From Tridacna crocea (taxonomy: Eukaryota > Mollusca > Bivalvia > Cardiida > Cardiidae), in assembly GCA_943736015.1 (NCBI GenBank), contig OX031069.1, positions 22,139,235 to 22,203,234 of the forward strand: 64,000 bases of DNA, in the 5' to 3' direction. The notes beneath the pieces were generated by a model. That model made no database searches. It worked only from the letters and a program-made list of their open reading frames with translations, and had not been told where the DNA came from. A program made the translations under genes and the position numbers. This document shows, in pieces, positions 3,137-64,000 of this stretch; positions within the stretch are counted from its first letter, which is position 1; each line of letters starts with the position of its first letter.

Positions 3137-3363
3137 TTAACTCTTTATAACAAAATTTTAGACTGGTCCAAATTGAAAACAATTTTTGCAGACAACAAAT
3201 AAAATGTGCCTAAACTTGTTGAATATTTCCAGAGAGATTATAAGCCACTGTGGGAAAAAGGAGAAAATGCTGGTTACCAGCATTTTCTCCTTTTCCACAA
3301 TGTTTTTAAAGGTCCTATTTCCAAGGGTCTTCAAAATGTGGGAACTGTGTGGTAAACGCTTAA
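3137..3363 (-). mobile_element. MITE-1 copy
   Basis: TTAA at both ends. The central palindrome GGAGAAAATGCTGGTTACCA and its complement span about 3256-3302. Confidence 0.85.
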
Positions 3364-3400
3364 AGATATTATCAGCATAAGGTATTTGATTTTAAAGATC

Positions 3401-3623
3401 TTAACGCTTTATCAAATGATAAAATTTTAGACTTGTCCAAATACAAAGCCTTTGCAGACAATGAATTAATTATAGCTCGATTCATATTTGTCTTCAAACA
3501 AACGGAAAGCATTTAGAGAAGGAGAAAATGCTGATTCCCAGCATCTTCCCCTTCTCCAATAGTCTTTTCCAAACCTTCTTTTTAAAGGTTGTTTTAAAAG
3601 GAGATCATTTGATACAGAGTTAA
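3401..3623 (-). mobile_element. MITE-1 copy
   Basis: Degenerate hairpin (GGAGAAAATGCTGATTCCCA then CAGCATCTTCCCC). Its right TTAA (3620-3623) is also the left TTAA of the next copy. Confidence 0.8.
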
Positions 3624-3848
3624 CCCATTACCACTCAATCCCTACTTTTGACGACCCTTAGAAAGAAGCCTTTAGAAAACATTGTGGGAAAAGGAGAAAA
3701 TGCTTGTAACCAGCATTTTCTCCTTTTCTCACAATGTTTTCTACTCCATCAGAGACAATTTTCAACATTTAAAGAACATTTAAATTGTCGTCTACAAATG
3801 CTTTCAGTTTCTACATATCAAAATTCTTGTTGTGTCGTAAAGAGTTGA
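3620..3848 (+). mobile_element. MITE-1 copy, head-to-tail with its neighbour
   Basis: Opens TTAACCCATTACCACTCAAT and closes GTCGTAAAGAGTTGA. The right TTAA has mutated to TTGA. Nearly perfect central hairpin at 3677-3742. Confidence 0.85.
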
Positions 3849-3876
3849 ACCCAAATTATCACAAATTAATTTTTTT

Positions 3877-4105
3877 TTAACCCTTTACCACACAATCCGG
3901 ACTTTTAACACCCCTGTGAAAGAAGCCTTATGAAAACATTGTGGGAAAAGGAGAAAATGCTGGTAACCAGCATTTTCTCCTTTTCCCACAATGTTTTCTT
4001 CCCTTCCTAAAACAAATTTCAATTCTCTAGTCACATTTATTTTGTCGACTGCAAATGCGTTCAATTTGGATCAATCCAAAATGTTGTCGTTTGGTAAAGA
4101 GTTAA
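3877..4105 (+). mobile_element. MITE-1 copy
   Basis: TTAACCCTTTACCACACAAT at the left and GTCGTTTGGTAAAGAGTTAA at the right, with an intact hairpin around 3962. Confidence 0.9.
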
Positions 4106-4241: not shown

Positions 4242-4475
4242 TTAACTCTTTCCCAAACAAGAAAATGCCAGACTAGACTTACTTCAAAGCATTTACAAAC
4301 AGCAGAATCAGTGTATCTATAGCCTAGAATATTACTTCTGTCTTTAAGATGGTAGAAAATAATGTGAAAGAGGGAGGAAATTCTGGTAACTACCATTTTC
4401 TCCTTTTTCCACCGTGTTTTCAACAACCCTCCTCAGCATAGTGGGTTTAAATGAAATTGTTTGGTAAAGGGTTAA
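4242..4475 (-). mobile_element. MITE-1 copy, diverged
   Basis: TTAACTCTTTCCCAAACAAG start and TTGGTAAAGGGTTAA end. The hairpin has several mismatches (GGAAATTCTGGTAACTACCA). Confidence 0.75.
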
Positions 4476-4522
4476 TTGTTTTGTACATTCTGCTTGTGAC
4501 TCAGTGAATTATGTAGTCTATG

Positions 4523-4736
4523 TTAACTCTTTACCACATAATCCTGACTTTTAACGACCTTGAAGAAGAAAACTTTTCAAGACATTGTAAGAAAAGTAGA
4601 AAATGCTGTTAACCAGCATTTTCTCCTATTCCCACATTGTTTTCTACAATTCCAGAGAGAATTTCATTTTAGTTGCCCTCTGCAAATGCTTTGAATTTGG
4701 ACAGGTCTAAAATTTTGTCATGTGGTAAAGGGTTAA
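4523..4736 (+). mobile_element. MITE-1 copy
   Basis: TTAACTCTTTACCACATAAT start and GTGGTAAAGGGTTAA end, with the central AAAATGCTGTTAACCAGCAT palindrome. Confidence 0.85.
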
Positions 4737-6198: not shown

Positions 6199-6746
6199 AT
6201 TTGAACTCTTTACCAAACAACAATATTTTACAATCGTCTAGATTCAAAGTTGTTGCAGAGGACAATTTAACCCTTTACCCCATAAGACATTTCTATGGTA
6301 TCTCTAATTGACCCTAAATAACAGCAAGGATGAAGCTGTTTTTTACGTATACATCACACCTTTTGATAGGGTAGAAAACATAGTGTCAAAAGGTAAAATT
6401 GCTTGTCACCAGCAATTTCACCTTTTGCCACAATGTTTTCCAAAGGCTCCTACAAGCAATGCATAGAAATGAGTATCTATGGAGTAAAGGGCTAAATGTG
6501 GCTCAATGAAAACCAATTTTAAATAGGAAGAAAACATTGTTGGAAAAGGAGAATTGCTGGTTACCAGCATTTTCTCCTGATCCTTCTATGTTTTTGAAAG
6601 GATATTTGTGTGTGAACAGGAAGAAATCAATATGGAAAATGGAAAAAATGCTGGTTATCAGCATTTAAACTTTTTTCCATAATGTTTTCACAAACCTTAT
6701 AGGTTATAGAGGTTGTTAAATCTTAGGATTGGTTAGTGAAGAGTTA
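6199..6746 (-). mobile_element. MITE-1 copy interrupted by another TTAA element
   Basis: Left part (ACTCTTTACCAAACAAC ... TTGCAGAGGACAA) ends at 6266 and resumes at about 6496 (ATGTGGCTCAATG), with the intervening element removed. It has two hairpins in series (about 6530-6590 and 6630-6685) and ends AGTGAAGAGTTAA. Confidence 0.6.
6267..6495. mobile_element. nested TTAA hairpin element, variant subfamily
   Basis: Runs from TTAACCCTTTACCCCATAAG to GGAGTAAAGGGCTAA. Its palindrome uses AATTGC/GCAATT in both arms where MITE-1 has AATGC/GCATT, and its flanks differ from MITE-1, so it is a related but separate subfamily. Confidence 0.65.
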
Positions 6747-8794
6747 ATCTACAAAACTACCGTCAAAAGTTTTTTGTGTGTGTGTGTCATTTATAAAAGT
6801 CTGAGAGTAATTCCTTTTGGTTTGAAGACATTTCAAAGATGTTTTGCATGAAGATATTTTAGACTTTATGGGGGAAAAATATCGAACAGATATTGGGCAT
6901 AATCCAAGACATGGTGCTTATTAAAAGGTTTATTTGCTGCAAGCCTTGGTCTAAATGTGTTGTGATGTCTTATTTCATAGAAATCAGTTTTTGGAATATT
7001 TTGAGTTCCAGCAAGTGAAAACCTTTAACTTTTGTCAACTTGTCAAATCATGTCAGACACTCTTTATATTGCACATCTTCGGCAAATTTCTTGCCATTTA
7101 GGATTAGTAGCCTAAATTCTTGAAAACCTACAGCAACAATAAATTCTTTCTATGATATTTTGTCAAGCTCCTGTTACAGGTCAGAAAAAGTTATCACTAT
7201 GTTGCCCTGCTAAAACTTCTTCATAATTATATCAATGGATTGGTCTAACCTTAGCCTAGACTTTACACATGGGTGGATTTTAAAATATATTTTGAAACAG
7301 ATTTTCACAATAGTTCTCCTTTATGTGTTTATGTGGCAATCTTAACATAAGGTCAGGGTCATACTTGGAGGTCATAACTTAAAGCTCTACATATACTTGT
7401 TCATAGAGAATACTCCTATACTCTAGCAAATTTGAAAACAGGGATCTAAAATAAGAATGACAGATATTTAATGATTTGGTCACTTTTTGTCCTAGTGCAG
7501 TTTCAGTTCATTACTAATTCACCCCTCACACTGTTTCCAAATTTATATTGTTTTTGTATGTCAAGGTCATTTTGTAAAATTAGTATTACTTTTGCCTGTC
7601 AAACCAAACTTAGATAACTCTATAAATTTTCAGTAGGTCAGTAAATGGTTGGCATGCAGCTTTTTTCTACTTCTGCAGAAGACTAGTTATAATGGTACAC
7701 CATAATTACAGAAAACTACATGTAGTAAGTTGACACACAGGTTAATCAAGAATAAAGCAAAAATTAAAGCTACAATGAATGAAAAAATTAGCAAGGTAAA
7801 AAATCTCACTCAGTAGTCTATATCAAGAGGTCACTCTCAGTAACAAACACAGGTTTGAGCAAGAAAAACCTAAGAATTTTGATAAAGTAGTTTAAAATGT
7901 AAGGTTGTACATTCACCTTATAAACAAATGCATAGGTCCATCCAAACAATTTTTAATCAACAAAACTTAAGAAGATACAGACCAAAGTAAACTAGTTATT
8001 ATTAGCTAACATGTGAGAGAAAACTTAACAAGCAAGCACCATATATTCTGCTATAGAATTAGGTTGAATTTAGATAAAGACATCAGAAAGTTTCAATTGA
8101 TTGTTTAAAGTAAAATGCAAAAGATCATGACCCTTGCCTTGATTTCTACATTTGTGACAAGCCTAGAAACACTGTTAATTCCTAGATAACCTACAGGCTG
8201 GATTACTCAGTGCACTACACATTTAATATATTTAATAGCATTCACATAAATGCATAATTCAAGAATCCATATTTTCAAAATCACAGATAATTGATATTCA
8301 TCATTACGCCTCTTCAAAACAGAATTTTGAAGTGACAAAATCACATTCCCATCCCAGTCTGCTTGGGTAGCAGTTTCCACACCACATTAGGAGCATATTG
8401 ACACAGGCATATTGACTCGGACATGTAAGTTTGACATGTGGGAACAGAAATGGACTGAGTGGGTTTTGAAGGGTTTTGTAGTTTTAAACTGGTTTTAGAC
8501 TACCAGATGGACAGACGGAGAGTCAAAAACTGCACTTGGGTTTTGAAGGCCGGTACTATTATTCTGAAATAAACTGGGTTTCTGGGCTGTTGCAATTGAT
8601 GAAATTAAGGCACATTTTGAATACTAATTGATTTATACATGTGATAGCAGTCTTTCTATTTTTGTATTTTTTTTAAATGATAAAAGCAGGTCTTCAATTC
8701 TTTTTTTCTTTTAAAGCTGCCTAAGCACACTTATCTCTTTTATTTTGGAATTTCCTTAGTTTTTATCGTCTGGTAAAAAGGATTAAATCTGCAT
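6747..8794. other. no gene seen
   Basis: AT-rich sequence without exon signals that I would trust, apart from a solo MITE-like end (TCTGGTAAAAAGGATTAA, about 8768-8785). Confidence 0.4.
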
Positions 8795-8905
8795 AACAAA
8801 ATTCTGAGATTTAATAACCCAAAGACAGAATCCTTTCAAAAACATTATGTGATAATACTGGTAACCCAGCATTTTCTCCTTTTCCCACTGTCACAAAATG
8901 ATAAG
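8795..8905. mobile_element. MITE-1 hairpin fragment
   Basis: AACATTATGTGATAATACTG followed by CCAGCATTTTCTCCTTTTCC; both ends are lost. Confidence 0.4.
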
Positions 8906-9324: not shown

Positions 9325-9472
9325 GTCTTGTAACTAGTATTTTCTCCCTTTTCCATAATGCACTCAACCATTTTGCAGACAGATCCTATCATTAAAGCAT
9401 TACATTATTTGTTGTCTGTGAGTGCTTTATATTTTGTAAAGTCCAAAATTTTATCATTTAGGCGAGAGTTCA
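9325..9472 (+). mobile_element. MITE-1 right-half fragment
   Basis: Holds the right hairpin arm (TATTTTCTCCCTTTTCC) and a degraded right end (AAAATTTTATCATTTAGG). Confidence 0.5.
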
Positions 9473-9599: not shown

Positions 9600-12110
9600 A
9601 TTAAAATAATCTTTTTTTTCCTTAAGGATCTTTCAAATGGTTATGTGTGCTTCTGATACCTCTTTCCCTGGTCACAATTAATGCTGCAGAAAGGATCAGA
9701 AGCTAGCATAGCCATTAAATTTTTTATCTTTATTTTTATGAGTAACGGCAGGAATTTGAAGAGGGGGAGGTTGGGAAAGGAGAAATTTGGAGAGAGAGGG
9801 AAAGAGAGAGATTTTTAAGAGTGGAATACTGAGAGGAAGAGGATGAGAAAAAGTGAGAGAAATTTGCAGAGAGAGAGAGACTGATATTAAAATAAAGAAA
9901 ACTGTCTCAAAGATGTAATTCAAATGTAAGGCTTTCATTTTTTTCAATCTATTTGCAAAACATGGCTAATTTAATGTAGTATTAAAATCTTTTTTTTTTC
10001 CTTAACTCTTTACCACACAACAAAATTTGTAACTGGTCCAAATTGAAAGCACTTGCAGACGACAAAATAAAAATAACTCAAAAATTGAATTTTGATTTTG
10101 GAAGGGTAGAAAACATTGTGGGAAAAGGAGAAAATGCTGGTTACCAGCATTTTCTCCTTTTCCCACAATGTTTTCTAAAGGCTTCTTTCTCAGGGTCGTC
10201 AAAAGTAGGGATTGTGTGGTAATGGGTTAAGGATATTTCAAATGGTTATGTGTGCTTCTGATACCCCCTGTCCCTGGTCACGATACTGCAGAAAGGATCA
10301 GAAGCTAGCATAGCCATTTTATCTTTATTTTTATGAGTAACTGCAGGAATTTGAAAAGGGAGAGAGTGGGAAAGGAGAAATTTGGAGAGAGAGAGATATT
10401 TAAGAGTGGAATACTGAGAGAAAGAGGATGAGAAAAAGTGAGAGAAATTTGCATAGAGAGAGAGAGACTGATATTAAAATAAAGAAAACTGTCTCAAAGA
10501 TGTAATTCAAATGTAAGGCTTTCGTTTTTTTTTTTTTTCAATCTATTTGCAAAACATGGTTTATTTAATGTAGTATCAAAATTTTTTTTTTTTCCTTAAG
10601 GATAAGGATATTTCAAATGGTTATGTGTGCTTCTGATACCCCTGTCCCTGGTCACAATACTGCAGAAAGGATCAGAAGCTAGCATAGCCATTTTATCTTT
10701 ATTTTTATGAGTAACTGCAGGAATTTGAAGAGGGAGAGAGTGGAAAAGGAGAAATTTGGAGAGAGAGAGAGAGATTTTTTTAAGAGTGGAATACTGAGAG
10801 AAAGAGGTCAAGAAAAAGTGAGAGAAATTTGCAGAGAGAGAGAGATAGAGATTTTTAAGAGTGGAATGCTGAGAGAAAGAGGATGAGAAAGTGTGAGAGA
10901 AATTTGTACAGAGAGAGAGAGAGAGATTTTTAAGAGTGGAATACTGAGAGAAAGGGGATGAGAAAGAGTGAGAGAAATTTGTACAGAGAGAGAGAGCAAC
11001 TGATATTAAAATAAAGAAAACTGTCTCAAAGATGTAATTCAAAAGTAAGGCTTGCGTTTTTTTCAATCTATTTGCAAAACATGGCTAATTTAATGTAGTA
11101 TCAAAATAATCTTTTTTTTTGCTTAAGGATATTTCAAATGGTTATGTGTGCTTCTGATACCCCCTGTCCCTGGTCACAATACTGCAGAAAGGATCAGAAG
11201 CTAGCATAGCCATTTTATCTTTATTTTTATGAGTAACTGCAGGAATTTGAAGAGGGAGAGAGTGGGAAAGGAGAAATTTGGAGAGAGAGAGAAAGAGAGA
11301 GAGATTTTTAAGAGTGGAATACTGAGAGAAAAAGGATGAGAAAGAGTGAGAGAAATTTGTACAGAGAGAGAGAGCGACTGATATTAAAATAAAGAAAACT
11401 GTCTCAAAGATGTAATTCAAAAGTAAGGCTTTCGTTTTTTCAATCTATTTGCAAAACATGGCTAATTTAATGTAGTATCAAAATAATCTTTTTTTTTGCT
11501 TAAGGATATTTCAAATGGTTATGTGTGCTTCTGATACCCCCTGTCCCTGGTCACGATACTGCAGAAAGGATCAGAAGCTAGCATAGCCATTTTATCTTTA
11601 TTTTTATGAGTAACTGTAGGAGTTTGAAGAGAGAGAGAGAGAGAGTGGGAAAGGAGAAATTTGGAGAGAGGAAGAGAGAGACACAGAGAGAGGTTTTTTA
11701 AGAGTAGAATACTGGGAGGAAGAGGATGAGAGTGAGTGAGGAATTTGCAGAGAGAGAGAGGGAGAATGATAAAGAAAAATATCTCCAAAGATGTAATGCA
11801 AAAGTACAGCTTTTCCTTTTTCAATGAATTTGGATAACATAGATAATTCCATATAGTATTAAAATAATCTCTCTTTTTTTTCCTTAAGGATATTTCAAAT
11901 GGTTATGCATGCTCCTGTTACTCCCTGTCCCTGGTCACAATACTGCAGAAAGGATCAGAAGCTAGCATAGCCATTTTATCTTATTTTCATCAGTAATTGT
12001 AGGAATTTGGAGAGAGAAAAGAGAAGTGGGGAGGAGCAAGAGTGGGAATTTGGAAGGAGGAAGAGAGGGAGAAAGATGATAAAAAAAAAATAAGTTAGGC
12101 TTTTTCTATA
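9600..12110. repeat. tandem array of ~380-520-bp purine-rich units
   Basis: About six units, each marked by CTTAAGGATATTTCAAATGG (near 9624, 10227, 10605, 11123, 11502, 11886), followed by GCAGAAAGGATCAGAAGCTA and a (GA)-rich segment. Within the unit at 10.6-11.0 kb an ~75-bp block (GAGATTTTTAAGAGTGGAAT) is itself repeated three times. Minus-strand Ser/Leu-rich frames here are repeat shadows. Confidence 0.92.
10002..10230 (-). mobile_element. MITE-1 copy inserted in the tandem array
   Basis: Element 10006-10226 (221 bp) flanked by TTAA at 10002-10005 and 10227-10230. Neighbouring array units have a single TTAA at the same point (CTTAAGGATATTTC). The termini CTCTTTACCACACAA and TTGTGTGGTAATGGG are inverted repeats. 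Palindrome 10108-10178 is perfect, with 35-bp arms and one central base. Confidence 0.97.
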
Positions 12111-12123
12111 CATATTAAGTCAT

Positions 12124-12386
12124 TTAATGCTTTACAATACAATCCCATGTACTCACTTGAGGGAGTTTAGTTTTGGAAAGTATTGAGGGAAAAGGAGGTA
12201 GGCTTTGAAAAGTATTATGGGAAAGGAATAAAAACTGGTTACAGGATTTATCTTTTTAACACTTTTTTATAATTTCCAAAGACAAATGCCATTATTTGAT
12301 CCAAATTCAATATAACTTGTCTGCATAGAAATTATTATGCTGTAAATTTTGCAGAGCTTAAAATTTTGTCATTTGACACAGTTTCA
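12124..12386 (+). mobile_element. MITE-1 copy, strongly decayed
   Basis: TTAATGCTTTACAATACAAT start, loss of most of the hairpin, and AAAATTTTGTCATTTGACA near the end. Confidence 0.45.
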
Positions 12387-12504: not shown

Positions 12505-12691
12505 TCTTGAACCCTTTACAAGACAATCCCTTGTTTTTACAACCCTGAGATAGAAACCTTTTCTCTTTTTCCCACAATGTTTTCTACACTGCTTGAAAGA
12601 AATTTCAATTTTTTAGTCACGTTTATTTTGTCTTCTTCAAATGCTTTCAGTTTGGACAAGTCTAAAATTTTGTTTTTTGGTAAAGAGTTAA
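12505..12691 (+). mobile_element. MITE-1 copy lacking the left hairpin arm
   Basis: TTGAACCCTTTACAAGACAA at the left and TTTGGTAAAGAGTTAA at the right. Only the CTCTTTTTCCCACAATG arm is left, a deletion that removes the palindrome. Confidence 0.75.
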
Positions 12692-12943: not shown

Positions 12944-13160
12944 TATTATCCTTTACCATACATCCCAACTTTTAACACCCGAAGAAAATAAGCTTTTAAA
13001 AAAATACTGGAAAAAAGAAAATGCTGGTGAAAACCAGCATTTTCTCCTTTTCCCTCAATATTTTTCTTCCCTTTTCAAAAGAATTGTCAACTTATGTGTC
13101 ACATTTATTTTATGGTCACATGCCTTCAGTTTTGACTTTTATTGAACTTAATTTTCTCTC
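12944..13160 (+). mobile_element. MITE-1 copy, diverged
   Basis: Starts TATCCTTTACCATACATCCC. Hairpin AAAATGCTGGTGAAAACCAG around 13020. The right end is degraded. Confidence 0.6.
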
Positions 13161-13627: not shown

Positions 13628-13654
13628 CAGACTGCACATAATATAACATCACAT

Positions 13655-13775
13655 AGTCCAGAGTTTTAATAATCCTGAGATGGATGTACTTAGAAAACAT
13701 TGTGAGAAAAGGAAAGAGTGCTGGTAACCATCATTTCCTACTTTCCCCACAATGTTTTCTACCCTAAGACAATGC
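13655..13775 (+). mobile_element. MITE-1 fragment
   Basis: GAAAACATTGTGAGAAAAGG hairpin with mismatches; no TTAA ends. Confidence 0.55.
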
Positions 13776-13792: not shown

Positions 13793-14023
13793 TTAACCCA
13801 TTACCACACAATCCCTACTTTTGACGGCCCTGAGAAAGAAGCCTTTAGAAAACATTGTGGAAAAAAAAAAGAGAAAATGCTGGTACCAGTATTTTCTCCT
13901 TTTCCTGCAGTGTTTGTTACCTTTCACAAAATAAATTTCAATTTTTTAGTCACTTTCATTTTGTCATCTGCAAGTGCTTCAATTTGGACAAGCCTCAAAT
14001 ATTGTTGATTGGTAATGAGTCAA
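13793..14023 (+). mobile_element. MITE-1 copy
   Basis: TTAACCCATTACCACACAAT start. Right end TTGGTAATGAGTCAA (TTAA mutated to TCAA). Confidence 0.85.
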
Positions 14024-53100: not shown

Positions 53101-56100
53101 ACACTGTAGGAAAAGGAGAAAATGCTGGTAACCAGCATTTTCTCCTTTTCCCACAGTGTTTTCTACCCTTCCCAAAACAAATTTCAATTTTTCAGTCACT
53201 TTTATTTTGTCGTCTGCAAATGCTTTCAATTTGGACCAGTCTAAAATTTTATCGTTTGTTAATGAGTTAAGTAAGCATGCACCAATCCCCTGCTCAGTTC
53301 ATAGCATGCAGGACTTGAGAACAGAGGGGTCAAGGGTTTGATCCAGGGCTGGGCCTATTTCTTTCTGAGGAATGATGATAATTAGTGGGACAGGATTCAT
53401 TCTTCTCTCACTACTGAACATTCTTTTGATGATGGTTATGTGGGAAAGCCTGCAAGTGGCTTGGAAAGAAATTGTCCAGAGTGCTGTTAAAAAATTCCAG
53501 GAAAGAATGGATGTGTTTTCTGGCTGCTGCAGCTGAAATAATATTGAAACTGCATTAAACTCATACAATCGACAGATATCAGCCTGTACATGCCTTAGTG
53601 CACATGTGTATCCGTATGAGTTTGCGATAATCCAACTTCTATATGTGTAGAAAGGTGTGTGTATGAAACTTCTTTATGTGTAGAAAGGTTATTTCACCTA
53701 ATAGACCTTATAGACTGAAAGAGTTGTCTTGTGACATATTTTTCAGACAGGTAAAAAGGTCAAGGTCACAGTTGAAGGTAAAAAAATGAAATGATCACAA
53801 ACATAAGTCTTGTTTTGGCCATTACTCATACATTGTCAGCCCAGGGTGTAACTCTTTACCAAACCCCAAAACAAAATTTTAGCTTGAAATCCAAAAATGA
53901 CAAATGATGGGATAATATATTTGAAAGGCTAGGATATATTGTTGGGAAAGGAGGAAATATTGATTTCCTCTTGGTAGTGAGAATTTTGGGGCTGTGTGGT
54001 AAAGGGTTATACATTTTGTTTTCTTCAGAATCAGCCAAATACAAATGATGGTCTTATTACCATGACAACCAAGTTACCAGATGAAATGAACTGGGCAATA
54101 TTTATGGCTGGAGGTGGTCACTTTGCTGCTGCAGTGTTTTCCAAGTAAGTTTTGTTAAAATGATAATGAACAATAATATATTACATGTTATAATATCTCT
54201 CTCTGATCATAATGTTAACCAGTATTTTTTCCTTTTCCCACAATGTTTTCCACCATATCAAAGAAAAACCACATAATTTGAGCCACACTGAAATTGTCCG
54301 CTACAAATGCTTTCAATTTGGACAGGTCCAAAATTTTGTCGTTTGGTAAAAGAGTTAACTTACACGTTTTTTTAAATGATAAAAGTTAGATGCGAATAAC
54401 CAACCTCATTTGCCTGGGATATCACAGGAATTCTTTTCTTGTCATAGGTCTGTTTCTATTTCAGAGGAAAGCTGATGGTCCACAAGACATTTCATAGATA
54501 TGTCGTAAGGGCTAAAAGAGGGACTGCCCAGAGCAGTAGGGACAGCCAGGGAAATGCCCCTAAATCCGGGGGTGCCTCTCTCAGAAGATATAATGAAGCA
54601 GCATTGACTGAGGTCAGTAGAAAGTTATTTAACCTTTTGCTACACAATTACAAGTTTTTAACAACTCTGATGGAGAGGGTTTTGAAAACATGGCAGGAAA
54701 AAGGGAAAATGCTGGTTACCAGCATTTTCTCCTTTCCCGACAGTAGTTTTTACCCTTTCAGAGACAAATTTCAATTTTTGGTTCACACTATTTTTCTTCT
54801 GCGAATGATTTCAATTTGGACAAGTTTGCAGATACTTTGCATGGAGTTTACTGTATACCAGACAACCAAAATTAGGTACATGTCCAGATTAAAACTATTT
54901 GCAGAAGATAATTTTAAATATTGCTCAAATTATGTGATCAGTCTCCGAGGAAGGTGTTGAAAACATTATAGGAGCAGCAAAAATGCTGATGGGTTGGTTT
55001 TTCTTCTATCCCTCAGTAGTTTAGAGGCTTGTTTTTGCGCAGCATCATTGAAACAGGTAAAAAATTAATTTGGGATTTCATTCTATTCATCTAGATGTAC
55101 AGGTTATTTTTACTAAAACTATAATTGTTTTCCATAGGGAATAAATTAAACACATATTCTCAGGTCAACTTTAATTTAACATTTCAGCCAGAGGCTTTTT
55201 AAAAAGAAAAACACTAAACTTTCACTGCTGCTACATTTTAACAGTCCACTATGATGTATATAAAACATGATGTCATGACGTCGCACACTAATGAAGCGAC
55301 GTTATTCCCATATTTTTGTCTTGTTGTGCCAAACGGAAGCTGAAATATCACTGTCTTTCACATTGCAAACATCTGTACAAACAGTTTGTAGCTTCTTGAT
55401 CCACAGTCCCTCCCTTAGCTTTCTCTCCGTCTTGTGAGCATTGTACAGCTTCTCTAGGACCACGAAAGCCATGTCTGTCTGACAATGTTCCCCTTGGCTG
55501 AAATGAACAGTGATTGGCTTGTCCCTCTGAAGGCACACATCCCTAAGGTGCTCTGACATTCTCTCCCTTAATTGTCGTTCTGTCTCCCTGAAATACACTG
55601 TTGATTTACAACTGGTGCAAATGATCCCGTATACATCGTTACGTGACCAACAAGTAACATCTGAGATCGGAGATATGTATTCTGCTGAGAAGTATCAGAA
55701 ACGGCCTTCCGAGATAAAATGCCACAGTTTTCACATCCGGGGTTGCAGAATGAACTGTTTGTCTTAAGTTCTCTGTTTGTTTTGCCATGGACCAAGGTGT
55801 CAGACAAGTTCTTATCCCGTCTAAAGGCTACTATTGGCAGATCTTTGAATACATCCTGCATCCTACTTGACCTGTACAAGACATTCAGGCGCTTTTTCGT
55901 AATTTGTTGAATGACAGGCAGCAGATTCGAATATGTAACCATCAGCAACACCCTTTTTGAGCTTTTATCTACCTCTGCCTTCCTATTGACAGTCAACAGT
56001 TCTGACCAGTCTTGCGTGTCAGCCATCTTTAGCTGTGCTTCTATCAGTTGACCGCTATAACCCCTCTTTTGAAGTTGATTTATCAATTTTTGCCTGTGTC

Positions 56101-59100: not shown

Positions 59101-62100
59101 TAGTAGACTGTTAAAATGTAGCAGCAGTGAAAGTTTAGTGTTTTTTTTTTTCTTGAAAAAGCCTCTGGCCGAAATATTGAATTAAAGTTGACATGAGAAT
59201 ATATGCCTATTTTTTGACCTACAAAAAACTCTCACAGTACACAAAGGAGAAATATTCAAAAGCAAGGGGAACCTTGTAGGAGAAGAAAGGCACTTGCTTA
59301 TGACTATTTATTGTTTCTCATCCCACAATGTATTCAAACAGCAGTCTATTCAATTATCAATCAGGCTATATTGGCTCATATGGAAGTTGGTGAATTGCTG
59401 GATATGTATGCGTGTCAAAACCTTGCAAGCTTGTGGGTAAAATACGCAAAAAGATAAGTTTAGGAATTTTTTAAAAATTTGAGAAATTTCCATGTGGCAA
59501 AAGTTTCTTTTTATACATTTTTTTTTTTTATTCACTTCATGGGCCACAAGTTTGCAACTTTGCAATGCCAACATTTAAAAAATTGATAATGGTTATTAAT
59601 CATTTATAACAGGAAATACAAGAACTGATTACATCATGGAGGGAGCACATACAGACTTGTGATAGGATATTTTTGAGGGCTCCAAGTTTTAACAGAAAGA
59701 TTTTCTTTGGAGGAAAATCCCCACCATTCCAGAAAGATGACCTGCGCATCAGACTTATTCCATTCCAAACTCGTCGACCAACATTTAATGAAGTGAGGAG
59801 AGTATATGAAATGCTGTCTTCTATTGAATGCTATGGTAAGTTTACTACATAAAAATGCTGTAAAGTTAAACCTTGGTGTGCCACCTGCATGCACTCAGCA
59901 GCCAGCTGTGATTAATATTTACTGGATGACGTAATTGTACACTAATTTACAAGCATTTGCATTCAACAAATCAAATGTGGTTCAAAAACCTGGGAATTGT
60001 CTTTGAAAGGCTAAAAGCTTTCTGAGAAATGAAGCTTACTTTTATTTCAAGTCCTGTGTGATACTGTAGCTACTTGTACTTCAAAACCGAAGTGATCCTG
60101 TAATGACATGTAAAAACTTAGATGATTCTGGAACAGTTACATATCCATATATGGAGTGCAACACACGAAAAGGTGCATTCGGACATTTGCGTAAAGTGTC
60201 GTCCCGGATTAGCCTGCGCAGTCCGCGCAGGCTAATCCGAGACGGCACTTTACGACTACATTAGATTTTCTGCTACAGTAGACTTGCGTAAAACAGAAAA
60301 TCACATAAAATCGGAAAGTGTCGTTTCGGATTAGCCTGTGCGGACTGCACACACTGATCCGAGACGACACTTTACGCAAATGTCCGAATGACCCTTTTCG
60401 CGTGTTGCACTCCATATGGTGTAGTTGCACCCAAAAACAAACAAAAAAATAATACTGTTTTATATCTCCACCAAGGTAATGGTATAGTTACCTTTCTAAA
60501 CCCAGGTCATGTTACTGTTACATGCCTACACATAGGAAATGTCATAGTTATGTGTCGAGACATAGGTAGTTACGTGCCAAAACCAAACATATTATCGTTT
60601 TATATCTCCACCAAGATAATGGTATAGTTACATGTCAAAACCTAGGTCATGTTACTGTTATGATTGTGGGAAAGAAAATATCAGGAAAAAAAGAATCAGG
60701 ATAAAAAGTATCGGAAAAAAAGAATCGGGGGGGGGGGGAAGGATCAGTTTCCTAAAAGAGACTCAATATGATATATCATGATGTAAAAATTTAGCTGAAA
60801 GATTATGATGACTTTGTTAAAGAAAAGAAAAAGTGACATTTACACATTTTTCTTTTTACTTTTTTTTTTGCCTTAGATTAAGAAGAAATGTGCAAGCGCT
60901 CATTATTGGTTGTTGACATCTGCAAGGGATTGGATCATAACCATAGTAATTAAAAGTGATTTTGACACAAATTTATTTGTTTAATTTTTGTAATGTGCGA
61001 TCTGTGTAAACTATCAATCCTAATTGAGGTCTAATTTTCAATTTGATTAAGTCACTAATTGTCATTTTATTTTATTTATGGTTGAAATATACACTTAACT
61101 TACAATATGAGGGTCATCCAATAACTAGCAAGACTGTAGTTATTGAAGAAATACCTGAACTAATTCTCATCCAATGTCCCTACATTCCTTCAATATAGGC
61201 TCCTTCCTTTTCAATGGCAGAATTCCATCAGTATCGGTGAGGAAGTCTTCTTATTCCTGTTGCTAGGCAACCAGAGATAATGCGGTACCTCTACTTCCAG
61301 GGCATCTAAATCCTCATAACGCACACCTTGCAATGGTTCTTTCAACTTAGGAAAAAAATCAAAGTCTGGAGGACTAATGTCTGAAGAATATGGAGAGTGC
61401 AGTAAAATGTCCCAGTTATAGAGTGTGATACTTTCGCAGGTGCATTAGGCCCCCTTTTCACAGAGCATGGCTCATTTATATGTCTAACAATAGATTATAC
61501 TATAATTGCATGTCTAAACAACCTAGGTGATGAGACAGATATCCAAGACTTTATACCACTCAGTCCACCCCAAGTCTTCAACAGAGACACAGGTCAATTA
61601 GAGATAAGAGATGAGACACAACTGTCACCCAAACACAGAAAATTGTACAACAGAAAGTTAAGAGGTTCTCCACTGGCTAATGAGAGTAGCCAAAATGCCA
61701 AAGATGAGGGAGGGAAAGGAAAGGTTGACACTAAACCTGAGGTGAAGAAGACTCCATTACCAGGTATTGACTATTGCTTATTAAATCTACCATATGGGTT
61801 GTGTCCGTGATTGTGAGTTAGAGCATAGGCCTCGTAACCATACTTTAGGACCATTCAATGGCACACATGTTTGGTACGAGTACTGGTGTATTTCCCTGGA
61901 AGTACAATAGAGAAGGATTAGTATAAGTTGCAACAAATTGTTTCTCAGTTGATGTAAAATAAGTAACTTCAACTGTACCAAACAATTTTGTGTTTTAATA
62001 AGCCTCTGAAAATAGGTTGGGAAAAGGAGAAAATGCAGTTAACCAGCATTTTCTCCTTTTTCCACAATATTATCTACCCTTTTCAAGACAAATTCCCTTT

Positions 62101-63800
62101 CTTGAGCCACTCTTGATTTGCAGAATGTAAATGATTTTCATGTGTAGATTTTGTCATAAAGTGTTTAATTTTTCTTGTGCTCAACTGAGTGGAGCATACA
62201 ATTTTAAAGTTTTGTCAAATGCAATACAATTAAAAAAATGTAGACATACTTTTTACTCAATCATGCATATCATTTCCTCTCCCTAACATAGTAAAGTAAT
62301 TATTTCATGAAGATTTTTCGGAACACCCTGGGGAAAAAGAAAGCTGCCTGTTAATGTTTTTTTCTTCTTTACCTACGTTATTTGTACCCTTCACACATTT
62401 GAGCCATATTGTTTACATCTGTCATGTTATTGTTGGGGAGAAAAGATCATGCTCGGTGTCAGCTTATCATAATCAGCATACCACAAAACACATCTGTATT
62501 GTTGGATAAGAGTTGAGATTTGACTAATTAACAAAAACCTTGTTCTTAACAACAGATCATGTACTAGAAGAAGAAAATCTTTCCTCAGAGACCTCAACTG
62601 CTAGTGAAACAGAGATGATCGAAGTTATGCAAACTATTTCAACACTGGATTTAAAAGGTTTTTCTTTTTGTTTTGTTTTCTTTGACTTTAGAAAAGGTTC
62701 TTACTTGGCTTAAAGGGGAAGGTGTAGAATTTGCTCACAAGAGAGCCGTGGTTCAATCCTCACTTGAAGCTCATATATATAGTTGAAATATCCTAGGGTT
62801 AGACACTTCAAAGTCCTGGCTTGGTTTGTTGTTGAAAGGTGGGACATAAATGAATAAGTAAGCTGATATGAGTGAAAATAATGACAGAAATTGCTAAAAA
62901 CACCATTCAATTAATGAGCAAGATTCACCTTTACTGAAGCTCTTTTATACTCCCATTAAATGAATGTTTTCGGGGCTATAGTGGAATCAGCCTGTCTGTC
63001 CTTGTGTCTGGCCGTTTGTCCATCTGTGTACAAAATAATTGTAATTTTGTGTCTCAAACTCCTCTAACAGTTTTTTCCTTCAATTGTATTGAAACTTTGC
63101 ACATATACTGATCATATGTTGAAGATTTGCAAGACGCAGTTTTCAAGTGTCAATTCTTCCTGGTTGAGGAATTATTTTCCCTTGGACTTGACATTTTTCT
63201 CTGTCAAAGCGCTGGCGGGGGTATTAAGTCATATTCAGTGACAGCTCTAGTTTCTTTTGATCCTCAAAGATTATTGATGTAGCCATAGTTTAATTTGATT
63301 TTAAACATGAATCTTAAGCCTTTACTAAATGACCCAGTTTTAGACTTGATGAAATTGAAAACTTTTGTAGACAGGAAATTATATGTTGCTGAAACTGGGG
63401 AATTATCTCTGAAAGGTAAAAAACGTGAAAAGGAGAAAATACTGGTTGCCAGCATTTTCTTCTTTTTGCACATAGTTTTCGAAAGGCTCTGCATTATGTA
63501 TGGAATTATTTTGTTTTCCATAGAATTTGGTGGGACAAAGAAACCCAAACGGAGAAAGAAAAGCGGAAGGAAAAGAAATGGTTTACAGAAATGTCAGCTT
63601 GAGCCAGAGTCTAATGTTATGGGTGGGTTAAAGTTAATTGTGAACTACTTAGATTATTGATGTTAAACTTTTAAGCTGGACTAAAATACTTCATGATTCC
63701 CATGGTTGGCCAACTAAAATTACTAATTGTCTATTGCAGAAGACTTTGAGGTCCCATGTGACTGTGCTATAAATCTTTTTCTGGCAATGTTTACCAATGT
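47019..63800 (+). CDS. ANKZF1: ANKZF1/Vms1 orthologue, spliced gene (3' end beyond window)
   Basis: Peptidyl-tRNA hydrolase of ribosome-associated quality control, which releases nascent chains from stalled 60S subunits. Eleven exons were read by hand with GT/AG borders and matching phases: 47019-47184, 48927-49030, 50343-50439, 51011-51168, 52822-52917, 54029-54144, 54465-54612, 59613-59835, 61527-61763, 62556-62657, 63524-63622; a twelfth from 63740 is doubtful. The first eleven give 515 codons plus 1 nt. In order: basic N-terminus; C2H2 finger (CNFC ... HYRSDWH) split by intron 2; acidic serine-rich linker; VLRF1 domain over exons 5-8 with [17 protein letters not shown], whose glutamine matches the catalytic Gln of Vms1/ANKZF1, then [14 protein letters not shown] and RRPTF; a charged tail with [12 protein letters not shown]. 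The family then has ankyrin repeats and a VIM motif, which are not in this window. The start ATG has a good context (A at -3, G at +4) and lies 136 bp after a MITE. Introns are full of MITEs. Identity is firm; the exact first and last exons are less so. Confidence 0.93.
47233..47469 (+). mobile_element. MITE-1 copy in ANKZF1 intron 1
   Basis: TTAACTCTTTACCACACAAT to TTTGGTAAAGAGTTAA. The hairpin centre has an extra TAGCTGGT insertion (AATGCTAGTTAGCTGGTTAC). Confidence 0.9.
47470..48367. other. ANKZF1 intron 1, no feature besides a repeat scrap
   Basis: The words AGCTTGCGAGGCAGTGTGAA and CCCTCTTCACAGAGCATTTC (48190-48270) recur in altered form at 32390-32460 and 61425-61480. They suggest an old interspersed repeat. 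Confidence 0.35.
48368..48600 (-). mobile_element. MITE-1 copy in ANKZF1 intron 1
   Basis: TTAACCCTTTACCATGCAAC to GTGGCAAACGGTTAA; intact hairpin 48477-48543. Confidence 0.9.
48662..48870 (+). mobile_element. MITE-1 copy, decayed
   Basis: TTAACCTTGTACCAAACAAT start; only part of the hairpin (GCAACAAGCAATTTTTC) is left. Confidence 0.45.
48927..49030 (+). CDS. ANKZF1: ANKZF1 exon 2, first half of C2H2 zinc finger
   Basis: Acceptor ATAAAG|TA, donor CAG|GTATCA, phase 1 in and phase 0 out. Encodes [19 protein letters not shown], including the two cysteines of the finger (C-x2-C). Confidence 0.9.
49071..49302 (+). mobile_element. MITE-1 copy in ANKZF1 intron 2, diverged
   Basis: TTCAACCCTTTACCACACAA start; hairpin broken (AAAATGCAGGGGACCCATAT). 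It begins about 40 bp after the exon 2 donor. Confidence 0.6.
49480..49697 (-). mobile_element. MITE-1 copy, diverged
   Basis: AAAACTTTGGACTTGTCCAA near the left; GTTACAAAGGGTTAA at the right. Confidence 0.65.
49712..49939 (-). mobile_element. MITE-1 copy
   Basis: TTAACTTTTTACCAAACGAC to GTGTGGTAAAGGGTTAA; hairpin 49826-49881. Confidence 0.9.
49993..50222 (-). mobile_element. MITE-1 copy, diverged
   Basis: TTAACTCTTCATCGGACAAA start, hairpin CTTGTAATGGCATTTTCTC, GAGAATTAA end. It ends 120 bp before exon 3. Confidence 0.7.
50343..50439 (+). CDS. ANKZF1: ANKZF1 exon 3, second half of C2H2 zinc finger
   Basis: Acceptor TCTGTTTTAG|AAG, donor CTCTG|GTAAGC (phase 1 out). Begins [18 protein letters not shown], which supplies the two histidines (H-x5-H) and the DWHRxNLK signature seen in ANKZF1 proteins. 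With exon 2 the finger is C-x2-C-x12-H-x5-H. Confidence 0.95.
50473..50700 (+). mobile_element. MITE-1 copy in ANKZF1 intron 3
   Basis: TTCACTCTTTACCAAACAAT to TTTGGTAAAGGGTTAA, starting about 33 bp after the exon 3 donor. Confidence 0.85.
50697..50795 (+). mobile_element. MITE-1 left-half fragment abutting the previous copy
   Basis: TTAACCCTGTACCCAAAAAT to AAAATGCTAGTAACAGG; shares the TTAA at 50697-50700. Confidence 0.45.
51011..51168 (+). CDS. ANKZF1: ANKZF1 exon 4, acidic serine-rich linker
   Basis: Acceptor TTTTCCAG|GA, donor CAG|GTACTT, phase 1 to 0. Encodes [16 protein letters not shown] and more Ser/Glu-rich sequence. A SISGSE-type acidic stretch is found at this place in vertebrate ANKZF1. 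Confidence 0.92.
51233..51461 (-). mobile_element. MITE-1 copy in ANKZF1 intron 4
   Basis: TTAACTCTTTACCACACGAG to GTGTGGTAATAGTTTAA. It is preceded at 51195-51226 by a solo MITE end (TTAACCCTTTACCACTCAAT). The hairpin has coupled ACACT/AGTGT changes. Confidence 0.95.
51462..52821. other. remainder of ANKZF1 intron 4, no feature seen
   Basis: AT-rich unique sequence. Minus-strand open frames of 60-86 codons (51590-52201) have no motif and no conserved splice signals. Confidence 0.4.
52822..52917 (+). CDS. ANKZF1: ANKZF1 exon 5, start of VLRF1 domain
   Basis: Acceptor CTGTACAG|GTA, donor AAG|GTATGT, phase 0 in and out. Encodes [20 protein letters not shown], the first strands of the release-factor-like VLRF1 domain. 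Confidence 0.92.
53042..53270 (+). mobile_element. MITE-1 copy in ANKZF1 intron 5
   Basis: TTAATCCATTACCACACAAT to ATCGTTTGTTAATGAGTTAA. Coupled ACACTGT/ACAGTGT substitutions in the two arms. Confidence 0.95.
53275..53572 (+). repeat. tRNA-derived SINE in ANKZF1 intron 5
   Basis: A head with the B-box-like GGGTTTGATCC (53334) and a body GATGATGGTTATGTGGGAAA ... CCAGGAAAGAATGGATGTG ... GCTGAAATAATATTG shared with 30.8 and 38.2 kb. Confidence 0.65.
53849..54010 (-). mobile_element. MITE-1 copy, decayed, next to exon 6
   Basis: AACTCTTTACCAAACCCCAA start, hairpin lost, GTGTGGTAAAGGGTTAT end. The exon 6 acceptor is 18 bp further on. Confidence 0.55.
54029..54144 (+). CDS. ANKZF1: ANKZF1 exon 6, VLRF1 core
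   Basis: Acceptor TTTTCTTCAG|AAT, donor AA|GTAAGT (phase 2 out). Encodes [18 protein letters not shown], the conserved hydrophobic core of VLRF1. A degenerate MITE ends only about 18 bp upstream, inside the polypyrimidine/branch region. Confidence 0.95.
54213..54358 (+). mobile_element. MITE-1 right-half fragment in ANKZF1 intron 6
   Basis: Right hairpin arm (CCTTTTCCCACAATGTTTTC) to TTTGGTAAAAGAGTTAA. Confidence 0.65.
54465..54612 (+). CDS. ANKZF1: ANKZF1 exon 7, catalytic loop of VLRF1
   Basis: Acceptor TTTCTATTTCAG|A, donor GAG|GTCAGT (phase 0 out). Encodes [17 protein letters not shown] and [15 protein letters not shown]. The Gln in RGTAQ aligns with the Gln needed for peptidyl-tRNA cleavage in this family. 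It is intact, so the protein is predicted active. Confidence 0.97.
54629..54850 (+). mobile_element. MITE-1 copy right after exon 7
   Basis: TTAACCTTTTGCTACACAAT start, 17 bp after the exon 7 border. Hairpin GGGAAAATGCTGGTTACCAG. A further decayed minus-oriented copy seems to occupy about 54850-55080. Confidence 0.65.
55151..56950 (-). mobile_element. Penelope-like retroelement, minus copy (5'-truncated)
   Basis: On the minus strand this reads from an RT segment ([20 protein letters not shown], 56937-56760) through motif A (CFDVF-L-PSVP type, about 56700), the motif-C region ([10 protein letters not shown], about 56400) and a Cys-rich linker (CNPGCENCG) to a GIY-YIG endonuclease region ([20 protein letters not shown]). 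The domain order RT-linker-GIY-YIG is that of Penelope-like elements. Sequence 5' of the RT segment is missing from this copy. Its outer end (55151-55200) is the inverse of 59160-59204. Confidence 0.88.
55302..56937 (-). pseudogene. Penelope-like RT/GIY-YIG reading frame, broken
   Basis: The two longest open pieces are 55568-56086 (RT thumb/linker with [15 protein letters not shown]) and 55302-55598 (GIY-YIG region), which overlap in different frames, so a frameshift lies near 55600. Stops interrupt the RT part around 56100 and 56440. The motif-C aspartate pair reads A-D. Not expected to make an active enzyme. Confidence 0.8.
56950..59004 (+). pseudogene. Penelope-like RT/GIY-YIG reading frame, broken, with internal duplication
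   Basis: Open pieces: 56950-57295 (N-terminal RT), 57494-57745 (motif [12 protein letters not shown]), 57960-58196 and 58309-59004 (linker CQPGCGNCG and GIY-YIG region). A stop at 57296, a frameshift near 57330-57350, and a stop at 57487-57489 break the RT. Motif C reads FIGD. In the last piece a 38-residue block starting [11 protein letters not shown] is repeated in tandem (114-bp period, units from 58632 and 58746). Confidence 0.8.
56950..59204 (+). mobile_element. Penelope-like retroelement, plus copy (inverted partner)
   Basis: Includes the N-terminal RT region missing from the partner ([18 protein letters not shown], 57115-57170), then the same RT, linker and GIY-YIG order as the minus copy, and ends with the same terminal sequence. 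From about 57325 to 59204 it is the inverted repeat of the minus copy. It lies in an ANKZF1 intron and carries many stops and frameshifts. Confidence 0.88.
59613..59835 (+). CDS. ANKZF1: ANKZF1 exon 8, end of VLRF1
   Basis: Acceptor CATTTATAACAG|GAA, donor CTATG|GTAAGT (phase 1 out). Encodes [19 protein letters not shown] and [19 protein letters not shown], both typical of the C-terminal VLRF1 half. It follows a 5.0-kb intron holding the Penelope-like pair. Confidence 0.97.
60130..60422. mobile_element. long foldback MITE with nested palindromes
   Basis: Outer inverted ends read ATATGGAGTGCAACACACGA on the left and the inverse before 60420. Inside them lie two short palindromes built from the same words: AAGTGTCGTC, GGATTAGCCTG and a GCGCAG/CTGCGC core, each about 60-70 bp. 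The outer arms extend for about 60 bp. There is no coding potential. It sits in the intron between ANKZF1 exons 8 and 9. Confidence 0.85.
61085..61425 (-). pseudogene. mariner-family transposase C-terminal remnant
   Basis: On the minus strand the segment translates to [17 protein letters not shown] followed by KLKEPLQG and a degraded tail ending LLVIG-PS. The SSD aspartate sits where mariner transposases carry the third catalytic Asp in a PYSPDLAP-type motif. Several stops follow. It lies in the ANKZF1 intron between exons 8 and 9 and only the last third of the gene is visible. Confidence 0.7.
61527..61763 (+). CDS. ANKZF1: ANKZF1 exon 9, post-VLRF1 linker
   Basis: Acceptor ACAACCTAG|GT, donor CCAG|GTATTG, phase 1 in and out. 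Encodes [20 protein letters not shown] then a Lys/Glu-rich disordered stretch. Assigned by splice phase, open frame through 237 nt, and position. Confidence 0.85.
61968..62168 (+). mobile_element. MITE-1 copy in ANKZF1 intron 9
   Basis: TTCAACTGTACCAAACAAT start; hairpin GGAGAAAATGCAGTTAACCA; right end AAAGTGTTTAA. Confidence 0.65.
62556..62657 (+). CDS. ANKZF1: ANKZF1 exon 10, acidic segment
   Basis: Acceptor TTAACAACAG|AT, donor AAAG|GTTTTT (weak), phase 1 in and out. Encodes [17 protein letters not shown], resembling the acidic motif just before the basic patch in vertebrate ANKZF1. Confidence 0.82.
62945..63235 (-). repeat. family-C element 3' half, inverted copy
   Basis: Reverse complement of 39837-40031 plus 40217-40300, without the TIR element that interrupts that copy: CAATTGTATTGAAACTTTGC, GAAGATTTGCAAGACGCAGT, GTTGAGGAATTATTTTCCC. 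Confidence 0.75.
63314..63523 (-). mobile_element. MITE-1 copy abutting exon 11
   Basis: TTAAGCCTTTACTAAATGAC start; hairpin GAAAATACTGGTTGCCAGCA. The right end merges into the acceptor region of exon 11. Confidence 0.6.
63524..63622 (+). CDS. ANKZF1: ANKZF1 exon 11, basic patch
   Basis: Acceptor TTTTCCATAG|AA, donor ATGG|GTGGGT, phase 1 in and out. Encodes [16 protein letters not shown], a nuclear-localisation-like basic cluster found at this position in the family. Confidence 0.85.
63740..63800 (+). CDS. ANKZF1: possible ANKZF1 exon 12 (end undefined)
   Basis: A good acceptor (GTCTATTGCAG|AA) in the right phase opens a frame [18 protein letters not shown] that continues to a stop inside the next MITE. 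No clear donor or ankyrin signature is seen, so the 3' border is a guess and the exon may be false. Confidence 0.35.
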
Positions 63801-63844
63801 GTTCTTTAAAGCCCAAAAAGACAAGATTGTTTTTGTCCCTGTTC

Positions 63845-64000
63845 AAGTCTTTACCAAAGTTTTGGATTTGTCCAGATTCTAAGCAATCGCGGGTGACACA
63901 TGAAGCTTAGCTCAGATGATGGAATTTGTTTTTTGTAAGGAGAGAGACTTTGCAGGGCAAGGAAAAAAAGGTAGAAAATATTTTGGGAAAAGGAGGAAAT
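63845..64000 (-). mobile_element. MITE-1 copy cut by the window edge
   Basis: AGTCTTTACCAAAGTTTTGG start. The left hairpin arm (GTAGAAAATATTTTGGGAAA) is reached at the edge. Confidence 0.6.

Follow-up and report, generated by a model that had tools for sequence, protein, structure and literature searches.

A short palindromic element with TTAA ends in the Tridacna crocea genome and its probable piggyBac partners

What is the short repeat that crowds a stretch of C14 in Tridacna crocea, what moves it, and what is its palindromic core for? The window, that is, the whole stretch of 64,000 nucleotides analysed (22,139,235-22,203,234 of C14, in an assembly of 1,048,827,098 bases in 31 contigs), had been predicted from its letters to be dominated by one family, here called MITE-1, with more than 45 copies or fragments on both strands from position 3137 onward. 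This observation was confirmed. A profile built from 26 near-complete copies found 65 non-overlapping places at E<=0.01 (Table 1), 33 on the plus and 32 on the minus strand, with no copy placed upstream of position 3137, while the same profile found 0 places in the reversed window used as a control. Their summed length is 11,885 bp (11,862 bp after merging), which amounts to 18.5-18.6% of the window, and 28 of the 65 are near full length (model start at or before 6, model end at or beyond 223). The copies range from one with 1 difference in 229 bases from a C15 copy to relics at E 0.004, in line with the long or repeated activity proposed in the original prediction.

Table 1. Places of MITE-1 in the window, from the profile search
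Feature	Position	Strand	Model positions	Remark
MITE-1	3137..3363	-	1-229	
MITE-1	3401..3623	-	1-229	TTAA 3620-3623 common with next copy
MITE-1	3620..3848	+	1-228	
MITE-1	3877..4105	+	1-229	perfect 33-bp arms; served as search query
MITE-1	4242..4475	-	1-229	
MITE-1	4523..4736	+	1-229	
MITE-1 fragment	6204..6269	-	162-227	
MITE-1, divergent	6267..6495	-	1-229	
MITE-1 fragment	6493..6601	-	50-163	
MITE-1 fragment	6604..6747	-	1-141	
MITE-1 fragment	8787..8891	+	5-116	
MITE-1 fragment	9327..9470	+	84-227	
MITE-1	10002..10230	-	1-229	1/229 bases unlike a C15 copy, flanks unrelated
MITE-1 fragment	12124..12197	+	1-77	
MITE-1 fragment	12200..12381	+	48-223	
MITE-1, palindrome partly deleted	12510..12691	+	3-229	
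MITE-1 fragment	12949..13144	+	5-203	
MITE-1 fragment	13649..13766	+	12-129	
MITE-1	13793..14022	+	1-228	
MITE-1	14646..14871	-	1-224	
MITE-1 fragment	14869..15010	-	6-163	
MITE-1	15875..16088	-	6-229	
MITE-1 fragment	16125..16352	+	67-229	
MITE-1, palindrome partly deleted	16432..16634	+	1-229	
MITE-1 relic	22834..23033	+	3-221	
MITE-1 relic	24920..25117	-	7-228	
MITE-1	25259..25464	-	1-210	
MITE-1	26545..26772	+	1-229	
MITE-1 relic	27136..27340	-	1-216	
MITE-1	28309..28529	-	1-227	TTAA 28526-28529 common with next copy
MITE-1	28526..28740	+	1-218	
MITE-1, palindrome partly deleted	28741..28938	+	1-229	
MITE-1	30538..30762	-	1-227	
MITE-1	30963..31156	-	6-201	
MITE-1	31912..32139	-	1-229	
MITE-1 fragment	32469..32549	+	1-80	
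MITE-1 in 84-bp satellite array	43014..43242	-	1-229	unbroken units match the flanks once these are joined with one TTAA
MITE-1 fragment	44371..44440	+	1-76	
MITE-1 relic	44518..44710	+	12-204	
MITE-1 fragment	44813..44934	+	6-139	
MITE-1	46209..46415	-	4-206	
MITE-1	46432..46658	+	1-228	abuts next copy
MITE-1	46657..46883	-	1-228	
MITE-1	47233..47469	+	1-229	
MITE-1	48368..48600	-	1-229	
MITE-1 relic	48662..48863	+	1-210	
MITE-1	49074..49282	+	3-209	
MITE-1 fragment	49381..49432	+	86-137	
MITE-1	49492..49696	-	1-209	
MITE-1	49712..49939	-	1-229	
MITE-1 relic	49993..50204	-	20-229	
MITE-1	50473..50700	+	2-229	TTAA 50697-50700 common with next fragment
MITE-1 fragment	50697..50786	+	1-92	
MITE-1 fragment	50806..50903	+	34-131	
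MITE-1	51233..51461	-	1-229	
MITE-1	53042..53270	+	1-229	
MITE-1 relic	53849..54008	-	3-228	
MITE-1 fragment	54213..54357	+	85-228	
MITE-1	54629..54828	+	1-202	
MITE-1 relic	54850..55054	-	26-226	
MITE-1 weak fragment	59258..59342	-	49-131	E 0.004
MITE-1 fragment	59943..60029	-	106-192	
MITE-1	61973..62143	+	7-191	
MITE-1	63315..63489	-	46-228	
MITE-1 fragment, cut by window end	63846..64000	-	96-226	

The consensus of MITE-1 is 229 bp long including both TTAAs, with a terminal repeat of ~19 bp and a 67-bp palindrome at positions 56-122 composed of 33-bp arms flanking one base, values close to, if slightly different from, the ~225 bp and ~70 bp first given. A check for a consensus lacking TTAA ends found one that begins and ends with TTAA, as originally described. 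The stretches between palindrome and terminal repeats are unequal, ~36 bp on the left and ~88 bp on the right. The inverted ends read CYCWTTACCA, and with its short, non-coding sequence of uniform length the family has the structure of a MITE. The profile consensus of the left end is TTAACCCTTTACCACACAATCCCTACTTTTAACGACCCTG, and the terminal motif TTAACYCTTTACCAMACAA occurs 78 times in the window with up to 4 mismatches, in comparison to 1-7 times per run in 20 first-order Markov sequences. In the right end, two direct copies of TTTTGTYGTYTG lie 42 bp apart (consensus 164-175 and 206-217) and may perhaps be a transposase site.

Several other features of the window were recorded. Short hairpins with GGTACGAGTTCTCC and CGTAAAGTGTCGTCCCGGATTAGCCTGCGC arms at 43846-43920, 45742-45857, 60190-60254 and 60312-60376 are unmatched by the MITE-1 profile, and a long imperfect inverted repeat (13428-13631, 101-nt arms, 77%) lies just before a MITE-1 copy. 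A 480-bp unit is repeated in 7.9 tandem copies at 18418-22268, where no MITE-1 place was found. An exon at 54448-54660 on the plus strand carries a VLRF1 release-factor-like domain (Pfam bVLRF1, E 2.6e-19) and probably belongs to an ANKZF1/Vms1 gene, and the MITE-1 copy from 54629 overlaps the end of this match and continues in the same open frame. On visual inspection, two open frames at 56737-59004 on the plus strand resemble the final part of a Penelope-like retroelement, and they gave no Pfam hits; the second of them carries a 114-bp tandem duplication (58631-58854) of a GIY-YIG-like motif.

Sampled stretches and exact matches across the assembly showed that MITE-1 fills the whole genome. 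Eight 5-kb stretches, picked arbitrarily at round coordinates before being read, contained 42 MITE-1 places, 1 to 14 in each of the eight, covering 16.3% of the 40 kb. An exact 22-mer from the centre of the palindrome, by which an intact palindrome is counted twice, had 472,972 matches in the genome (236,597 forward and 236,375 reverse) and its reversed-pattern control had 0. The window, with 21 such matches or ~328 per Mb in comparison to 451 per Mb genome-wide, is thus not unusually rich in MITE-1. Across 159.6 kb of sampled sequence the coverage was 18.6% in the window, 16.7% in the arbitrary stretches, 40.1% in pieces next to MITE hits and 24.0% in pieces next to piggyBac elements, the latter two groups being a non-random choice. 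Scaled by the 22-mer count, the genome share was 26.5% (bootstrap 20-37%), and it was 27.7% when calculated from the window and the arbitrary stretches alone; the estimates thus span 16% to 28% and come from small samples, as do those of the number of places, which run from ~1.1 million (42 in 40 kb) to 1.7 million with fragments included. We estimate that MITE-1 occupies ~10^6 places and about a fifth of the 1.05-Gb genome. A 23-mer of the palindrome arm had 0 matches in viral and prokaryotic contig collections.

To describe how the palindrome compares with the rest of the element, mean pairwise identity per 10 columns was calculated for the 65 window places. The values were 0.70-0.79 for the palindrome and 0.71-0.83 for the ends, 0.65-0.72 for a box at 161-190, 0.67 for columns 201-210, and 0.48-0.60 for the rest of the interior, so that by this measure the palindrome is not better kept than the ends. 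Genome-wide counts of exact 22-mers were 472,972 for the centre, 287,654 for the arm, 100,366 for the left end, 82,608 for the box and 20,984 for the right flank, and as these 22-mers may not be the commonest of their regions the counts are a guide and not a rate (centre and arm 22-mers can also be counted twice per element). The 39 young copies, which are the 40 best hits of one window copy minus that copy and form a biased set, diverge from their consensus by 2.3% within the palindrome and by 4.2-11.5% in the regions around it. When CpG columns and the TTAAs were excluded, variants common to at least two of these copies affected 0.9% of the palindrome sites, as against 3.6% of the sites beyond it, while private changes were found at 36 of 2,607 sites (1.4%) in the palindrome in comparison to 114 of 5,644 (2.0%) outside (p=0.051); the CpG columns, all of which lie outside the palindrome, had 1.1% private and 13.4% shared variants. 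The main difference between the palindrome and the outside thus sits in the shared variants and hence in the source lineages. The palindrome is perfect in only 9 of the 39 young copies, and their arms carry 2 complementary double changes in comparison to 55 single-arm changes, indicating that the arms mostly drift apart after insertion. From these alignments, constraint seems to act mainly on the amplifying source copies, with near-neutral drift after insertion.

One explanation would require no function at all: the palindrome would look conserved since its arms correct each other by template switching or conversion, in dead copies too. The somewhat lower rate of private changes in the palindrome and the few complementary double changes agree with such correction, but the excess of single-arm changes and the position of the large gap in shared variants, i.e., in source lineages, speak against it, and we regard it as unlikely. 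Co-correction of the arms as a cause of conservation was also examined through co-variation and rejected: complementary double changes numbered 30 in comparison to 17.1 +/- 3.6 in whole-arm shuffles (maximum 30), and the ratio of all double changes to the column expectation was 1.21-1.82 with arms slid by 1-6 columns, in comparison to 57/35.5=1.61 for the true pairing, so that the excess is not specific. A separate candidate, that the palindrome arm is a terminal repeat in degenerate form, had a shuffle frequency of 0.006-0.011 in a post hoc comparison and was set aside as only a lead.

Another explanation places the benefit with the host or with RNA, the hairpin being kept or spread as a source of small RNA or double-stranded RNA, or as a shield from silencing. 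The single-stranded DNA of the 10002-10230 copy folds at -59.3 kcal/mol in comparison to a shuffle mean of -19.6 (z -13.2), and MITEs are dealt with as sources of plant microRNA genes in the part of PMC10004981 available; against this, no Rfam family matched the window at gathering score, and the ends and a box are highly conserved as well, which fits a role in transposition. We consider this explanation improbable, more so than correction between the arms. Selection on a transposition function in source copies is the reading we prefer, and within it we tentatively suggest, as a possibility held at less than even weight, that the palindrome is an enhancer of transposition or copy gain without counterpart in the autonomous elements. 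In those elements, which are described below, the palindrome was found only inside stretches called by the MITE profile, some of them fragments with little other content.

For the PF13843 piggyBac transposase domain, the genome gave at least 118 matches, with 116 of the 196 candidates scored, and 0 of these matches fall in the window, which agrees with the absence of a transposase reported there; the nearest listed match on C14 starts at 22,529,235. Two low-copy elements among the carriers of this domain are of particular relevance. The first is a 7.2-kb family with five copies, on C3, C5, C9, C10 and C15, four of which are 99.6-99.7% identical to the first, and with two more copies at 95-98%. 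Each of the five has an open 492-aa piggyBac frame. Of the ends read, the two diverged copies included, 5 of 6 on the left and 6 of 7 on the right have TTAA, the exceptions being the left end of copy L042 and the right end of copy L043. The ends of this element are TTAACTCATTACCACTCAGAGAGG and, reversed, TTAACCCATTACCGTTCAATAACGCCTTTTGACGCCCC, and its 181-bp 3' end occurs at only 11 places in the genome. The second is a 6.4-kb relative (6,376 bp, on C7) whose transposase is 80% identical to that of the 7.2-kb family and whose ends are TTAACTCTTTCCCACACAGACAGG and, reversed, TTAACTCTTTCCCACACAATCCCGACTTTTTACGACCCC, the latter being succeeded by more copies of the box CAATCCCGACTTTTAACGACCC in repeats of ~35 bp; both autonomous elements have this box as a subterminal repeat of ~35 bp.

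The partner transposase is stop-free over PF13843 positions 1-349, qualifying as a DDE_Tnp_1_7 transposase, and has a cysteine-rich C-terminus. The aspartates in VDEAMIPF, YFDNFFTG and GGVDLHDQL stand at piggyBac positions, and we take these three to be the catalytic residues. Most of its length can be aligned with two solved transposases, those of piggyBat (9c0f, E 5.7e-40) and piggyBac (6x67, E 4.3e-36). It has 1,198 relatives, 120 of which were listed, with identity up to 79% among the matches listed, and the first six species named among these are bivalves: Mercenaria (59% identity), Ruditapes (58%), Pecten (53%), Saccostrea (48%), Dreissena (56%) and Mya (56%). Both autonomous elements contain several nested MITE-1 copies between the 5' end and the transposase stop (L040 2967-3635; L046 7553-8218). 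These MITE-like units were considered as an ancestral part of the element, and this was rejected, as corresponding units are no more alike than non-corresponding ones and thus look like separate insertions.

The ends of MITE-1 were compared with those of the autonomous elements without gaps over the 36 bases after TTAA, using consensus versions from the 26-copy profile, the 65 window places and the 39 young copies. The left end of MITE-1 matched the 3' end of the 6.4-kb element at 30, 30 and 28 of 36 bases in the three versions and that of the 7.2-kb element at 25 of 36 in each, in comparison to a maximum of 18-20 among 3,961 TTAA-anchored sequences of unmasked reversed DNA. A hand-made left-end consensus, which differs from the computed one by 1 base, gave 31 and 26 of 36 with a null maximum of 20 (n=2,086, matches to the MITE profile at E<=10 excluded). 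In a genome search with the 6.4-kb 3' end, 28 of 40 scored matches (451 candidates) matched only bases 1-38 or 1-39, at 97-100% identity. Sampled sequence had 17 matches with at most 5 differences from the 38-mer, one of which repeats part of the window; among the 16 distinct ones, 14 were MITE-1 left ends, 1 was the element itself and 1 was without a called MITE start, and by analogy with these 14 of 16 the 28 short genome matches are probably MITE-1. At the level of sequence, the left ~38 bp of MITE-1, i.e., the terminal repeat and one subterminal box, thus correspond to the 3' end of the two low-copy piggyBac elements.

For the right end of MITE-1, the match was 14-17 of 36 bases with the autonomous 5' ends and 17-19 with their 3' ends, below the null maximum of 21-23, and hence no partner was found for it. 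The original assignment to the piggyBac superfamily is supported by elements elsewhere in the genome that have TTAA and the same left end, while a transposase gene with matching termini was found for the left end, beyond the terminal repeat, and for the right end in the terminal repeat only. The tips of MITE-1 are CYCW (CCCT, CCCA, CTCT and CTCA), those of the autonomous partners are CTCA, CCCA and CTCT, and the strict CC[C/T]T tip occurs only in some MITE-1 copies; the part of PMC2872659 available defines piggyBac ends by a 12-19 bp terminal repeat with a CC[C/T]T tip. The genome also has four further piggyBac families, which have open frames and terminal repeats distinct from these (L014-L019, L020, L021, L022, L032, L011), and as candidate partners these families, with tips CCCTTTATATAC, CCCTWGTCATGC, CCCTTTCAGYGC and CCCATTTATGCC, were rejected at no more than 17 of 36 bases over ten ends. 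For the 57% relative in L047 no element ends were found, and broken piggyBac transposase pieces are clustered at C8:56.71-56.76 Mb and C13:4.48-4.61 Mb.

An origin of MITE-1 in another TTAA superfamily, Kolobok/T2 or Sola3, would make its piggyBac-like ends a case of convergence. The TTAA target alone does not separate piggyBac from these superfamilies, and the right end past the terminal repeat is unmatched in the piggyBac elements found; nevertheless, the 28-30 of 36 matches to a piggyBac 3' end with the subterminal box at the same spacing, against a null maximum of 18-20, and the repetition of this box as a ~35-bp subterminal unit in both autonomous piggyBac elements make such an origin very unlikely. 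We infer that MITE-1 is, with high probability, a non-autonomous piggyBac transposon whose transposition would depend on the partner transposase.

Several observations bear on the movement of MITE-1. An exact 18-base left end with two IUPAC positions had 121,339 matches in the genome, with TTAA directly before 100,366 of them (82.7%), and the reversed-pattern control had 0. Near-full-length copies in the window had TTAA at both called ends in 16 of 28 cases and at one end in 10 of the other 12, and copies from elsewhere in the genome had it at both ends in 20 of 39 and at one end in 17 of the other 19. An 84-bp satellite (window 40389-43456, about 34 copies) is broken by the copy at 43014-43242, and joining the flanks of this copy with one TTAA gives a 406-bp alignment, at 84%, with unbroken units of the array; the joined site reads AATTAACTAG and the units read AATAAAACTAG or AGTTAAACTAG, the joint being one base short. 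TTAA at both ends of the copy and a single TTAA at the empty site identify it as the target-site duplication. The 10002-10230 copy and its C15 counterpart, which differ at 1 of 229 bases, have 60-base flanks that agree at only 14 and 14 positions, and this near-identical pair on different chromosomes with unrelated flanks indicates recent movement. Two further 98% relatives lie on C3 and C8. MITE-1 thus inserts at TTAA and has moved recently. One TTAA is common to several neighbour pairs (e.g., 3620-3623, 28526-28529 and 50697-50700), a pattern that would follow if older copies offer their terminal TTAA as a target. That the copies multiplied by segmental or tandem duplication instead would suit such abutting neighbours, but it is virtually dismissed by the near-identical pair with unrelated flanks, the TTAA before 82.7% of left ends and the entry into the satellite array at TTAA.

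Taken as a mechanism, the partner transposase would bind the ends of MITE-1, excise it and reinsert it into TTAA, and reinsertion would also hit the terminal TTAA of older copies, producing the abutting neighbours. With less certainty, the 67-bp palindrome may be a cis-acting part for which amplifying source copies are under selection: it could be a binding site for the C-terminal domains of the transposase that would serve both ends of a very short element, or a hairpin that would make excision easier or raise copy gain. In this way a few transposase genes, together with ~10^6 passive copies, could have come to make up about a fifth of the genome.

If the palindrome is indeed an enhancer, the miniature would outcompete its transposase source by about five orders of magnitude (~10^6 in comparison to 11 places), and this would explain how one piggyBac MITE lineage could fill about a fifth of an animal genome. 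Nearly every part of a MITE system can be read here, from a small number of open transposase genes and a left end in common to a very recently moved copy and about a million passive ones, and it offers a natural experiment on why some miniatures win, given a conserved hairpin core without counterpart in the autonomous elements. Both the transposase and MITE-1 are short enough for standard cell assays. For the annotation of such genomes, one 229-bp family would make up about a fifth of the sequence, and the case shows how a very small parasite of another parasite can come to dominate a genome.

No account of the MITE-1 family was found in the titles and abstracts searched, although Repbase and most subscription journals, which were outside this scope, may list it; a 13-mer of the palindrome arm occurred in the literature text of one paper, on rat circular RNAs. 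According to the available part of a survey of 27 bivalve genomes (PMC10294476), MITEs are a considerable share of the genome and were left unclassified, and in the available main text of a survey of perfect inverted repeats (PMC13155455) the word stems 'mollus-' and 'bivalv-' are absent.

Other systems were compared with MITE-1 through those parts of the respective articles that were available. BogoMITE in Blepharisma (PMC9942856) is similar in that a MITE is the most abundant repeat and its autonomous partner is rare, and it differs in belonging to the Pogo family, with TAA/TTA target duplications and 8,000 copies. Pokey with mPok1 and mPok2 in Daphnia (PMC4912750, PMC3849761) belongs to the piggyBac superfamily and has miniature derivatives, as we propose for MITE-1, and Pokey is reported to insert into a specific rDNA site as well. 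The ends of the piggyBac and piggyBat transposons are asymmetric and contain palindromes to which the transposase dimer binds through its C-terminal cysteine-rich domains; in piggyBac the same 19-bp palindromic sequence is present at either end (PMC11707139). The ends of MITE-1 are likewise asymmetric and its subterminal motifs are short and repeated as in piggyBac, but the piggyBac and piggyBat palindromes are 14-19 bp long and lie in the ends (PMC11707139), whereas that of MITE-1 is 67 bp long and central.

The coral CMITEs (Acropora, Wang et al. 2010, PMC2872659), as described in the part of that article available, share with MITE-1 the TTAA target, piggyBac-like terminal repeats, tandem neighbours, a conserved internal region of unknown origin, and a likeness to autonomous piggyBac that is confined to the sequence next to the terminal repeat; Wang et al. 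propose that the internal region has a role in transposition. In CMITEs the internal region is more conserved between families than the terminal repeats, while in MITE-1 the core is conserved (0.70-0.79) and the ends to an equal degree (0.71-0.83). Compared by description, CMITEs are ~100 bp long with an estimated ~1,600 copies, in contrast to 229 bp and ~10^6 places for MITE-1, and the core of MITE-1 is a near-perfect palindrome, while the word 'palindrome' is absent from the available CMITE text. The coral CMITEs are the nearest precedent of MITE-1, to which MITE-1 adds a far higher copy number and a palindromic core.
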